Source of the DNA: Prochlorococcus marinus str. MIT 0918
Lineage (GTDB): Bacteria; Cyanobacteriota; Cyanobacteriia; PCC-6307; Cyanobiaceae
Direction: 5' to 3'
DNA length: 64,000 bases
Assembly (NCBI RefSeq): GCF_027359415.1
Contig: NZ_CP114780.1
Location: 1,634,764-1,698,763, forward strand
Shown here: positions 1,163-18,083 of the stretch, piece after piece
Layout: the number at the start of each line of letters is the position of its first letter
Numbering within the stretch: the first letter of the stretch is position 1
Translations under genes and position numbers: made by a program
Notes under the pieces: generated by a model
What the model was told of the DNA's origin: nothing
The model's database searches: none
Seen by the model: the letters and a program-made list of their open reading frames with translations, nothing else

Positions 1163-3163
1163 ATGTCAACCTTAAAAATTGGGAGTAAAAGTTTGCAAAT
1201 TTTCAAGAGAATGAATGGTGCAGAGACCAATGCGAAGAATGGTTTAGCAAGATCACATTGGATTTCTACACAACGAGAGCAAAAAGCACTAAATGCTCAT
1301 CATTGTGTAAAGGAAATTAAGCGAGTTGATCAAATATGGCCATGGTTGAGAAATCATCATGGTGATTTATTAGCTGTTGATGCTCCACATTCAATAGCCC
1401 GTGAGAGTTATACCTATAAAGAGCTTGCTGACAAGATTTCAATAGCTGCAGCTGCTTTTAATTCTTTAGGAGTAAAAAATAATGATGTTATTGCGTTGTT
1501 TTCAGAAAATAGTCCTCGATGGTTAATTGTTGATCAAGGTTTGATGAGGTTAGGGGCTGCTGATGCTGTGAGAGGAGCTTCAGCGCCAGTCGAAGAGCTT
1601 CGTTATATCTTGGATGATTCTCAATCAGTTGGTTTAATAGTTCAATCAGCAAGCTTGTGGGAAAAACTTTCGTTAAATCAAGAGCAAAAAACACAATTAA
1701 AATTTGTTTTACAGCTAGAGGGAGAGACTAAAGATGGTTTGATTAAATGGGAAGACTTTATGCGAAGTGGAGAAAAGTATCTTCAAAAGCCCGTTGCAGA
1801 TAATTGTTCCAATAACATTGCAACTATTTTATATACTTCTGGGACTACTGGTCGCCCTAAAGGTGTCCCTTTGACTCATGAAAACTTTCTGCATCAAATG
1901 CGATCTTTAGCATGTATTGCGAGCCCTTCTCCGGGTACACCTCTCCTTAGCGTTTTACCTATTTGGCACTCTTATGAAAGGAGTGCTGAGTATTATTTCT
2001 TTTCTTGTGCATGTTCTCAGAACTATACAACTATTAAACATTTAAAAGATGATTTAAAAAAGGTTAAACCTGTTGTTATGGCAACAGTTCCAAGGCTTTG
2101 GGAGGCGATTAAGACCGGTTTTGATGATGCGTTAAATAAAATGCCTCGCTCTCGTCAATTAATTATTAAAGCTGCTCTTTCTAATAGCCATTGTTTTAAA
2201 TTAGCTTTAAGGGAATCACGTGATTTGTTATTGGTAAATGTAAAAGTTTATAGGAGAATATTATCTTCTTTAGAAGTTGTTTATCGTTGGCCTTTTCATT
2301 GTCTTGCTGCTTTAACTTTGTGGCCCAAAGTTCTTAAACAACTTTCGGGTGGTAGGTTGCAATTCCCAATAAATGGAGGGGGGGCAATAGCTCCTCATGT
2401 TGATGAGTTTTTTGAAGCTCTTGGAGTAGAATTATTAGTTGGCTATGGACTTACTGAGACAAGCCCTGTCTTAAGCTGTAGAAGAACCTGGAGGAATATT
2501 AGGGGCAGTTCAGGATTGCCCTTGCCTCAAACAGAGTTTCGTATAGTTGACCCTGAGAAAGGTACGCCAATGCGATTTTCTCAACAAGGAAAGGTTTTGG
2601 TGCGAGGGCCTCAAGTAATGAAGGGTTATTTAAGAAAACCAGAAGAATCTCTAAAAGTACTTGATTCAGAAGGATGGTTTGATACTGGTGATCTTGGAAT
2701 GTTGCTTAAAGACGGAACAGTTGTGCTTACTGGAAGAGCTAAAGATACTATTGTTTTAAGTAATGGGGAGAATATTGAACCAGGGCCATTGGAAGAAGCT
2801 TTGGTTTCTAGTCATCTTATTGAACAGTTAATGATTGTTGGTCAAGACCAAAGGCAATTAGGGGCTTTATTAGTTCCTAATGTTGAACAAATGTTGATTT
2901 GGGCATTAGAAAAGAATTTGTCTTTAGGAGAAGACTTGGGGGGCTCTTTTGGTGATAAGAATTTAAGAAAGTTTCTTAAGGGAGAAATTAATAGGCTGCT
3001 TTCTATTCGCCAAGGTTCTCGTTCTGATGAAAGAGTAGCCGGGGTGGCTTTAGTTAAGCCATTTTCAATTGAGAATGGCTTATTAACGCAGACGTTAAAA
3101 CAAAGACGCGATAGGATTGCAAAACGTGATCGTAATGCTATTGAAGATATTTTTGGTTTATAA
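1163..3163 (+). CDS. aas: Long-chain acyl-ACP synthetase / acyl-CoA ligase (AMP-forming)
   Basis: A 666-residue ANL-superfamily adenylating enzyme. The phosphate-binding loop YTSGTTGRPKG is near residue 223, the A5 motif GYGLTETSP near 425, and the hinge DTGDLGMLLKDG near 509, followed by TGRAKDTIVLSNGENIEP. Length and the insertion between residues about 320 and 395 fit the long-chain FadD/Aas group. In cyanobacteria this single-copy enzyme mainly activates free fatty acids to acyl-ACP for recycling of membrane lipid; that it does so here is inferred from the phylum rather than from a diagnostic residue. A GGGAGGA stretch lies about 25 bases before the ATG, further than usual. It follows lipB on the same strand. 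Confidence 0.88.
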   Translation: MSTLKIGSKSLQIFKRMNGAETNAKNGLARSHWISTQREQKALNAHHCVKEIKRVDQIWPWLRNHHGDLLAVDAPHSIARESYTYKELADKISIAAAAFNSLGVKNNDVIALFSENSPRWLIVDQGLMRLGAADAVRGASAPVEELRYILDDSQSVGLIVQSASLWEKLSLNQEQKTQLKFVLQLEGETKDGLIKWEDFMRSGEKYLQKPVADNCSNNIATILYTSGTTGRPKGVPLTHENFLHQMRSLACIASPSPGTPLLSVLPIWHSYERSAEYYFFSCACSQNYTTIKHLKDDLKKVKPVVMATVPRLWEAIKTGFDDALNKMPRSRQLIIKAALSNSHCFKLALRESRDLLLVNVKVYRRILSSLEVVYRWPFHCLAALTLWPKVLKQLSGGRLQFPINGGGAIAPHVDEFFEALGVELLVGYGLTETSPVLSCRRTWRNIRGSSGLPLPQTEFRIVDPEKGTPMRFSQQGKVLVRGPQVMKGYLRKPEESLKVLDSEGWFDTGDLGMLLKDGTVVLTGRAKDTIVLSNGENIEPGPLEEALVSSHLIEQLMIVGQDQRQLGALLVPNVEQMLIWALEKNLSLGEDLGGSFGDKNLRKFLKGEINRLLSIRQGSRSDERVAGVALVKPFSIENGLLTQTLKQRRDRIAKRDRNAIEDIFGL

Positions 3164-17266: not shown

Positions 17267-17317
17267 AATAATAAAGAGCTTAAAAGCAACTTTAATGCTT
17301 TTAAGCTCTTTATTATT
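17267..17317 (-). terminator. Perfect 22-bp terminator-like hairpin
   Basis: Arms 17267-17288 and 17296-17317 are exact reverse complements (22 bp) with a 7-base loop; one more A-T pair extends the base. The upper stem contains GAGCTT/AAGCTC and the lower stem is A/T only, so it supplies its own U-rich tail. It lies 33 bases past the stop of the DUF4278-type gene and most likely ends that transcript. Confidence 0.75.
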
Positions 17318-17349: not shown

Positions 17350-17520
17350 TTAGGCTTTTTGATATTGCACTCCACGGTAAGTAAGTGTTGAGAAGAGAGG
17401 CGAGGCTTTTTCTTGTCTGTTGATATAGACATTTTGTCTATAAGTCAGTTCAACAAAGTGCTTCTGTGCAATTTGTTTGTGCTGAACGTATGCTTTTCCT
17501 CGATAAATAAGGGTTTCCAT
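17350..17520 (-). CDS. DUF4278-type microprotein with three YRG repeats
   Basis: A 56-residue protein read from ATG 17520. It is built from three short repeats of the form L-x-Y-R-x-x-x-Y: LIYRGKAYVQ (4-13), LTYRQNVYIN (25-34) and LTYRGVQYQK (46-55). The LTYRGVxY element is the hallmark of the DUF4278 family common in cyanobacteria; function unknown. GGAC lies ten bases before the start, a weak ribosome binding site. The roughly 100 bases upstream form three hairpins on the leader, and a perfect 22-bp hairpin follows the stop, so this is a compact single-gene transcript. Confidence 0.75.
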   Translation of the reverse strand: METLIYRGKAYVQHKQIAQKHFVELTYRQNVYINRQEKASPLFSTLTYRGVQYQKA

Positions 17521-17539
17521 TTGCAGAGTCCGTTTTAGT

Positions 17540-17617
17540 GCCTGGCCCCCGTTCCTTGACCAGGCTGGAACTGCGCTCTGAAATCCAGAGCGAACGTTTT
17601 TTTGTAGCGGTTGCTAC
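17540..17617 (+). ncRNA. Structured segment: leader of the DUF4278 gene or opposing small RNA
   Basis: Three stems occur in a row: GCCTGG/CCAGGC (17540-17545 with 17560-17565), CGCTCTG/CAGAGCG (17574-17580 with 17586-17592) and GTAGC/GCTAC (17604-17608 with 17613-17617). Read on the plus strand, the second is followed by seven Ts (17597-17603) and the third by a long T-rich run, like two intrinsic terminators, although no plus-strand gene lies upstream. That suggests a small RNA antisense to the minus-strand gene's leader. Read on the minus strand, the same stems make a structured 5' leader. The strand given is a choice, not proof. Confidence 0.4.
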
Positions 17618-17810
17618 ATTATTTATTTTCTTTTTTTTAAAATAGTTTTGTAGTTCACTTTGATACAGAGCAAGCAAGCTATAGATTTCGTTAATGTTTG
17701 AAGCCTTTATAGGCGAAATTGAATAGCATATGATCTTTAAAGACTCAATTTCTAGATTGGATCTAATTGAGGATTTTAGTTCTATTCCTATTTACTCGAA
17801 GAATTAAAGG

Positions 17811-18083
17811 ATGAAACCTGTTTTGTTTTTTCTTGGATCAGCTATTAGGTGGATGGGTAAGAATCCCAGTAGATTCTTATTCTTCCATTTATATATTTCT
17901 TTGATTTATGTGATTACTTATATTGCAAAATCAAATTCATTAGACCTTTATCGCTTCATTTTTATTGCAGGGGCTATAGCCCCCTTGCTAATTGCTATTT
18001 ATAGAGGACTCCCATTAGATTGTCTGGATCTACAGACTGCAATAAAAAGAGAACTTTCAGAAAAAGAGTCCTTGGATACATAG
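17811..18083 (+). CDS. Small membrane protein (90 aa)
   Basis: A 90-residue protein with two hydrophobic segments, about 24-39 (FFHLYISLIYVITYIA) and 48-64 (RFIFIAGAIAPLLIAIY), followed by an acidic C-terminal tail (LQTAIKRELSEKESL). AAAGGATG at the start supplies a plausible ribosome binding site. I do not recognise the family; small two-helix proteins of this kind are frequent in picocyanobacteria. The gene converges with nfu, 72 bases away. Confidence 0.6.
   Translation: MKPVLFFLGSAIRWMGKNPSRFLFFHLYISLIYVITYIAKSNSLDLYRFIFIAGAIAPLLIAIYRGLPLDCLDLQTAIKRELSEKESLDT

Follow-up and report, generated by a model that had tools for sequence, protein, structure and literature searches.

The locus and its microprotein

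The window, the whole stretch of 64,000 nucleotides of Prochlorococcus marinus str. MIT 0918 that we analysed, carries on its minus strand a small gene together with the following features:

17269..17315, minus strand (found on both strands): AT-rich hairpin of 20 bp with a U-tract on both strands, the probable terminator of the microprotein mRNA
17350..17520, minus strand: DUF4278 microprotein of 56 aa with three L-x-Y-R-x-x-x-Y repeats (PF14105)
17529..17531, minus strand: probable Shine-Dalgarno sequence GGA, predicted to pair with UCC of the linking strand (17569-17567) in the ligand-free state
17540..17599, minus strand: glutamine-II (type 2, "Downstream-peptide") riboswitch aptamer (RF01704)
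17590-17586/17580-17576, minus strand: P1 of the aptamer
17565-17558/17548-17540, minus strand: P2 of the aptamer
17596-17592/17554-17550, minus strand: pseudoknot CGUUC/GAACG
17575-17566, minus strand: linking strand of the aptamer
17604..17617, minus strand: NtcA box GTAGCAACCGCTAC (GTAN8TAC, by sequence consensus), which is the third "stem" and probably a site of repression, located at the transcription start or slightly downstream of it
17618..17625, minus strand: weak, AT-rich -10-like region TAAATAAT (by sequence), directly upstream of the NtcA box
17650..17667, minus strand: conserved promoter element TGTATCAAAGTGAACTAC (consensus TGTATCnnnnTGAACnnC, from the alignment of host loci), centred about 42 nt upstream of the start of the NtcA box

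The preliminary description of this DNA had read the 56-residue protein as three copies of L-x-Y-R-x-x-x-Y and had assigned it to DUF4278. Both readings were borne out. The copies stand at residues 4, 25 and 46 with a period of exactly 21, and two or more copies appeared in none of 200,000 composition shuffles. The PF14105 HMM scored 35.0 bits (cut-off 25.3) over residues 3-53, and no Pfam match besides DUF4278, which fills these residues of the 56, was found in the microprotein. Fourteen columns were invariant among 23 homologues, and the invariant Y, R and G residues were encoded by mixed synonymous codons, which supports translation of the microprotein. Among the 53 distinct host YRG peptides, 29 had two repeats and 24 had three; three repeats is one of the two ordinary host forms. 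An AlphaFold2 model (pLDDT 72.5, but pTM 0.29) suggested two YRG hairpins, one at each end, together with a helix, and no sequence relatives of the microprotein were found in the PDB. An ORF on the plus strand opposite the DUF4278 gene (17413-17538) was unsupported.

Aptamer, putative operator and leader

Three GC-containing stems had been noted upstream of the gene, and we located them at 17541-17565, 17574-17592 and 17603-17618. The first two are P2 and P1 of a minus-strand aptamer. RF01704 was the only Rfam match in the 64-kb window; it covered the full model (1-60) with 62.3 bits (cut-off 33, E 1.1e-12), and the 56-aa ORF begins 19 nt downstream. By this match the aptamer is a glutamine-II riboswitch, for which glutamine binding and ON switching would be as in its relatives. 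The covariation of the stems among relatives, proposed earlier as a check, revealed compensatory changes in both P1 and P2, with the exchanges C-G/T-A, G-C/A-T and C-G/G-C. In 54 distinct host aptamers P2, which was placed by an anchor, was paired in 93% of cells versus 78% when the arms were exchanged between sequences; P1 was paired in 87% versus 66%, a figure that is somewhat favoured since its 3' arm was picked by best pairing. The pairing of P1 in 53 viral sequences was like that of the hosts, while the viral P2 figure is lowered by some type-1-like aptamers in this set.

The third stem behaved differently from P1 and P2. It reads TGTAGCGGTTGCTACA, that is GTAN8TAC, the NtcA consensus, and this motif occurred 17-24 nt upstream of the aptamer in all 26 parsed genus loci and in 27 of 28 further family loci. 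Among 33 loci, its inner four positions were complementary in 28, 25, 10 and 15; the outer three positions were set by the search itself. Because complementarity was not kept at the inner positions, we rejected the RNA helix and regard the third stem as a DNA operator. Of 27 genus loci, 16 had TANNNT at -12 to -7 relative to the box, and transcription of the relative Yfr6 starts some 20 nt upstream of the motif (PMC2864571). One further locus (L032) had the NtcA-type box GTATCCGTTGCTAC twice, in identical copies spaced by 54 nt, upstream of a single aptamer.

The aptamer was found in 14 of 14 genus genomes and in 75 of 121 family genomes (more than 90% complete). The genome of MIT 0918 (1.79 Mb) has three RF01704 copies, two of which precede three-repeat DUF4278 ORFs; the third copy scored 32.9 bits and is followed by a 59-aa peptide (MNTLPLIRSQLQRAKRLHKAQ...) that has no DUF4278 domain. 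The N-terminus of this third host peptide matched the cyanophage family phrog_545 (2.5e-8), which also weakly matched the YRG end of the window microprotein (8e-4). At L003 (about 1305-1552, minus strand), and also at L026, L027, L028 and L032, an aptamer and an NtcA-type box (GTATCTGTTGCTAC) stand before a nearly unchanged 59-aa peptide, MNTLPLIRSQ..., without DUF4278.

How the leader might switch was approached by folding. In the fold of the window leader, GGA together with CUGC (17526-17523) was paired with GCAG-U-UCC of the P1/linking region at a probability of 0.82, the predicted flanking pairing being that of CUGC with GCAG (17574-17571). Leaders of the window type formed anti-Shine-Dalgarno duplexes of -7.2 to -11.5 kcal/mol. 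Over all loci the native pairing was -4.59 kcal/mol versus -3.35 kcal/mol for shuffled leaders, and it was not better than that of leaders swapped between loci (p = 0.08). A fixed anti-Shine-Dalgarno across all loci was rejected since swapped leaders paired as well; these models suggest such pairing only in the window's own ortholog group. There, glutamine would break the Shine-Dalgarno helix because the linking strand enters the pseudoknot. Klahn et al. (2018), as related in PMC6316151 and PMC6698751, report that glutamine turns the Prochlorococcus type 2 switch ON.

A probable nitrogen-control cassette and its alternatives

Taken together, the locus is very probably a nitrogen-control cassette of the minus strand, composed of an NtcA-box promoter, a glutamine-II riboswitch and a DUF4278 microprotein. 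The parts that can be read directly in the DNA (the aptamer with its covarying stems, the NtcA-type box, the extra promoter box and the family of the microprotein) would work together with an ON behaviour and a response to nitrogen like those known from close relatives. The promoter, overlapped by the NtcA box, would yield an mRNA of about 350 nt, with the riboswitch as its 5' UTR and the microprotein as its sole ORF. Under nitrogen limitation NtcA, seated at the start site, would block transcription, a repression that we infer here by analogy. With nitrogen in excess NtcA would leave and glutamine would rise; glutamine would then fix the P1-pseudoknot-P2 fold, the linking strand would be drawn into the pseudoknot, and the freed Shine-Dalgarno sequence would allow the peptide to be made. 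The peptide most likely dampens nitrogen assimilation via protein contact, as the related IF17 does on glutamine synthetase.

The same layout has been described before. PMM1846 of MED4 combines a DUF4278 gene, the riboswitch and an NtcA motif (PMC6316151), and Yfr6 of the same strain drops upon nitrogen depletion (PMC1242208). Both RF01704 members resemble our locus in the full aptamer, a small ORF just downstream, several copies per genome, the NtcA motif and the DUF4278 product. Nothing essential differs; the window copy is of the three-repeat 56-aa form and has a TGTATCnnnnTGAACnnC box, as have most relatives. In Synechocystis PCC 6803, gifB/IF17 likewise has a DUF4278 domain, a glutamine riboswitch in the 5' UTR and an NtcA box near the transcription start. 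However, IF17 has a type 1 (glnA) aptamer and a C-terminal inhibitory (IF7-like) part, while the window protein is DUF4278 only. With riboswitch, microprotein and NtcA-box promoter already described for the group, the window locus is an ordinary, well-explained member.

Two of the stems had been said to look like intrinsic terminators on the plus strand although no plus-strand gene precedes them, and a regulated leader or an antisense RNA had been offered as explanations. The observation was reproduced: a consensus scan flagged 17574-17592 and 17603-17618 (5 terminator-like plus-strand sites in the 2-kb region versus 1.1 expected), and no plus-strand gene lay closely upstream. The regulated leader held, as the RF01704 riboswitch, whereas for the antisense RNA the terminator look was explained by the aptamer, an A-run and the putative NtcA operator. 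The look of P1 arises because the A-run precedes the minus-strand aptamer, whose complement then reads as P1 followed by a T-run. This T-run was present in 22 of 33 related loci, and the others kept the aptamer without it; it was missing at the host loci with the 59-aa non-DUF4278 peptide, at a few other loci and in the phage copies. As a sequence inference, plus-strand terminators or an antisense RNA were thus rejected, since the aptamer and the NtcA box account for the hairpins and the T-run is not kept. We consider it improbable that the microprotein is regulated by a small plus-strand RNA that is antisense to the leader and has its 3' end at the terminator-like hairpins. Two antisense RNAs were measured in MED4, Yfr14 against Yfr6 and asMED4_04601 against a related gene (PMC2518516), which together with the terminator-like matches speaks for it; yet the aptamer and the NtcA box already explain the hairpins, the aptamer persists where the T-run is lost, and promoter matches in the region were not above those in shuffles. 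That the hairpins truly stop plus-strand read-through before the gene at 17811 is barely conceivable: they do match the consensus, but this signal arises as a side effect of the aptamer, no plus-strand gene is nearby upstream, and the hairpin at 17269-17315 is already terminator-like on both strands.

The product of the cassette raises further alternatives. A target in glutamine synthetase, and with it a role in restraining nitrogen assimilation, is presumed from IF17. IF17 can inhibit without its N-terminal DUF4278 part (PMC6316151), and inhibition of glutamine synthetase is therefore uncertain for a protein that consists of this part alone; with nothing beyond DUF4278, the microprotein is not an IF17. 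The chance that the cassette is real and the peptide acts elsewhere, e.g., on PII, an ammonium transporter or a photosynthetic complex, falls a little below even in our judgement. Besides the presence of only the DUF4278 part, marine picocyanobacteria are said to be without full-length inactivating factors (PMC6316151), and phages retain a minimal 17-aa YRG peptide beside psbA; against this, IF17, the best-studied relative with DUF4278 and a glutamine riboswitch, does act on glutamine synthetase. A bifunctional regulatory RNA, as proposed for Yfr6 (cf. RNAIII), in which the RNA and not the peptide acts in trans, would be in keeping with the structured transcript of Yfr6 (about 244 nt, with a small ORF), which was first taken as non-coding (PMC1242208). 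We hold it to be very unlikely, since conservation is concentrated in the aptamer, in the promoter boxes and in protein residues encoded by mixed synonymous codons, and since loci and phages alike keep the peptide motif but not the remainder of the RNA.

A further promoter box and the phage cassettes

When host loci were aligned on the NtcA box, 39 of 59 distinct ones had a TGTATCnnnnTGAACnnC box with GAAC 38 or 39 nt upstream of it, and GTA, GAAC and the last C of the box were invariant in these 39. The exact pattern gave 50 matches in the 121 family genomes versus 10 for the reversed pattern. In at least 36 of the 50 cases a listed glutamine-II aptamer followed at a distance of 47-52 nt; inspection of 12 of the other 14 revealed an additional aptamer (L262) and two genes for DUF4278 proteins (L259 and L260), and the remainder was about what the reversed-pattern control predicts. 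The box is nearly exclusive to promoters of glutamine riboswitches and DUF4278 genes, and it seems undescribed in the literature that we searched. It also reads GTAN8AAC, but we did not take it for a second NtcA site, since all 39 copies share the AAC and one more C is likewise fixed. Given a start site near the NtcA box, its position is that where activators would bind, and hence the promoter logic may exceed simple repression by NtcA. A third DNA-pattern match in the own genome was flanked by unrelated genes and was dropped. The two DUF4278 genes at L259 and L260 each had a TGTATCnnnnTGAACnnC box and a GTAN8TAC site, and no glutamine aptamer was seen in their leaders; at L259 an aptamer lay about 400 nt downstream of the promoter box, before a 104-aa non-DUF4278 protein.

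Glutamine riboswitches are known from T4-like cyanophages and a methylophage. By a DNA-pattern search and blastn we located RF01704 copies in T7-like cyanophages, where tblastn with the window microprotein had found nothing. P-SSP7, P-SSP6, S-RIP2, P-GSP1 and S-TIP37 (L189-L193) had one match each (48-56 bits), flanked in four of these five isolates by psbA upstream and by the capsid gene downstream; in P-SSP6 it was upstream of the capsid gene with no annotated psbA adjoining. No earlier report of glutamine-II aptamers in T7-like cyanophages was found in the open literature, of which our coverage is incomplete, and these cassettes seem undescribed in what we searched. As in the host, the aptamer is followed by a YRGxxY microprotein (17-79 aa, mostly unannotated; in P-SSP7 the unannotated 17-aa peptide MKVTFVYRGVAYTRVIG). 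The phage cassettes differ from the host form in having one repeat (in the five phages checked), no TGTATCnnnnTGAACnnC promoter element (0 of 46 viral sequences) and rarely an NtcA box (2 of 46), and in their psbA/capsid location. Eight other viral contigs (L065, L068, L093, L097, L120, L130, L132 and L182) showed two tandem aptamer-like cores before YRG peptides, and some of these cores were closer to the type 1 (glnA) aptamer.

These observations suggest a wider proposal, for which we see about equal odds either way: that the picocyanobacterial glutamine-riboswitch/YRG cassettes share a dedicated TGTATCnnnnTGAACnnC box read by a factor besides NtcA, and that T7-like cyanophages such as P-SSP7 acquired the cassette but not the promoter signals of the host and carry it beside psbA or the capsid gene, so that high glutamine in the infected host leads to synthesis of a minimal YRG peptide of 17 aa.

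The regulation of glutamine synthetase and of nitrogen assimilation in marine picocyanobacteria was called unclear in a review (PMC6316151), and microproteins under riboswitch control are the main candidates. The layered module of upstream box, NtcA box, glutamine aptamer and YRG peptide recurs through the group, and its phage counterpart has a single YRG repeat and lacks the promoter signals of the host. As a minimal active unit, the shortest phage peptides (17 aa) are easily put to the test, and the TGTATCnnnnTGAACnnC box gives a handle for finding the missing regulator.
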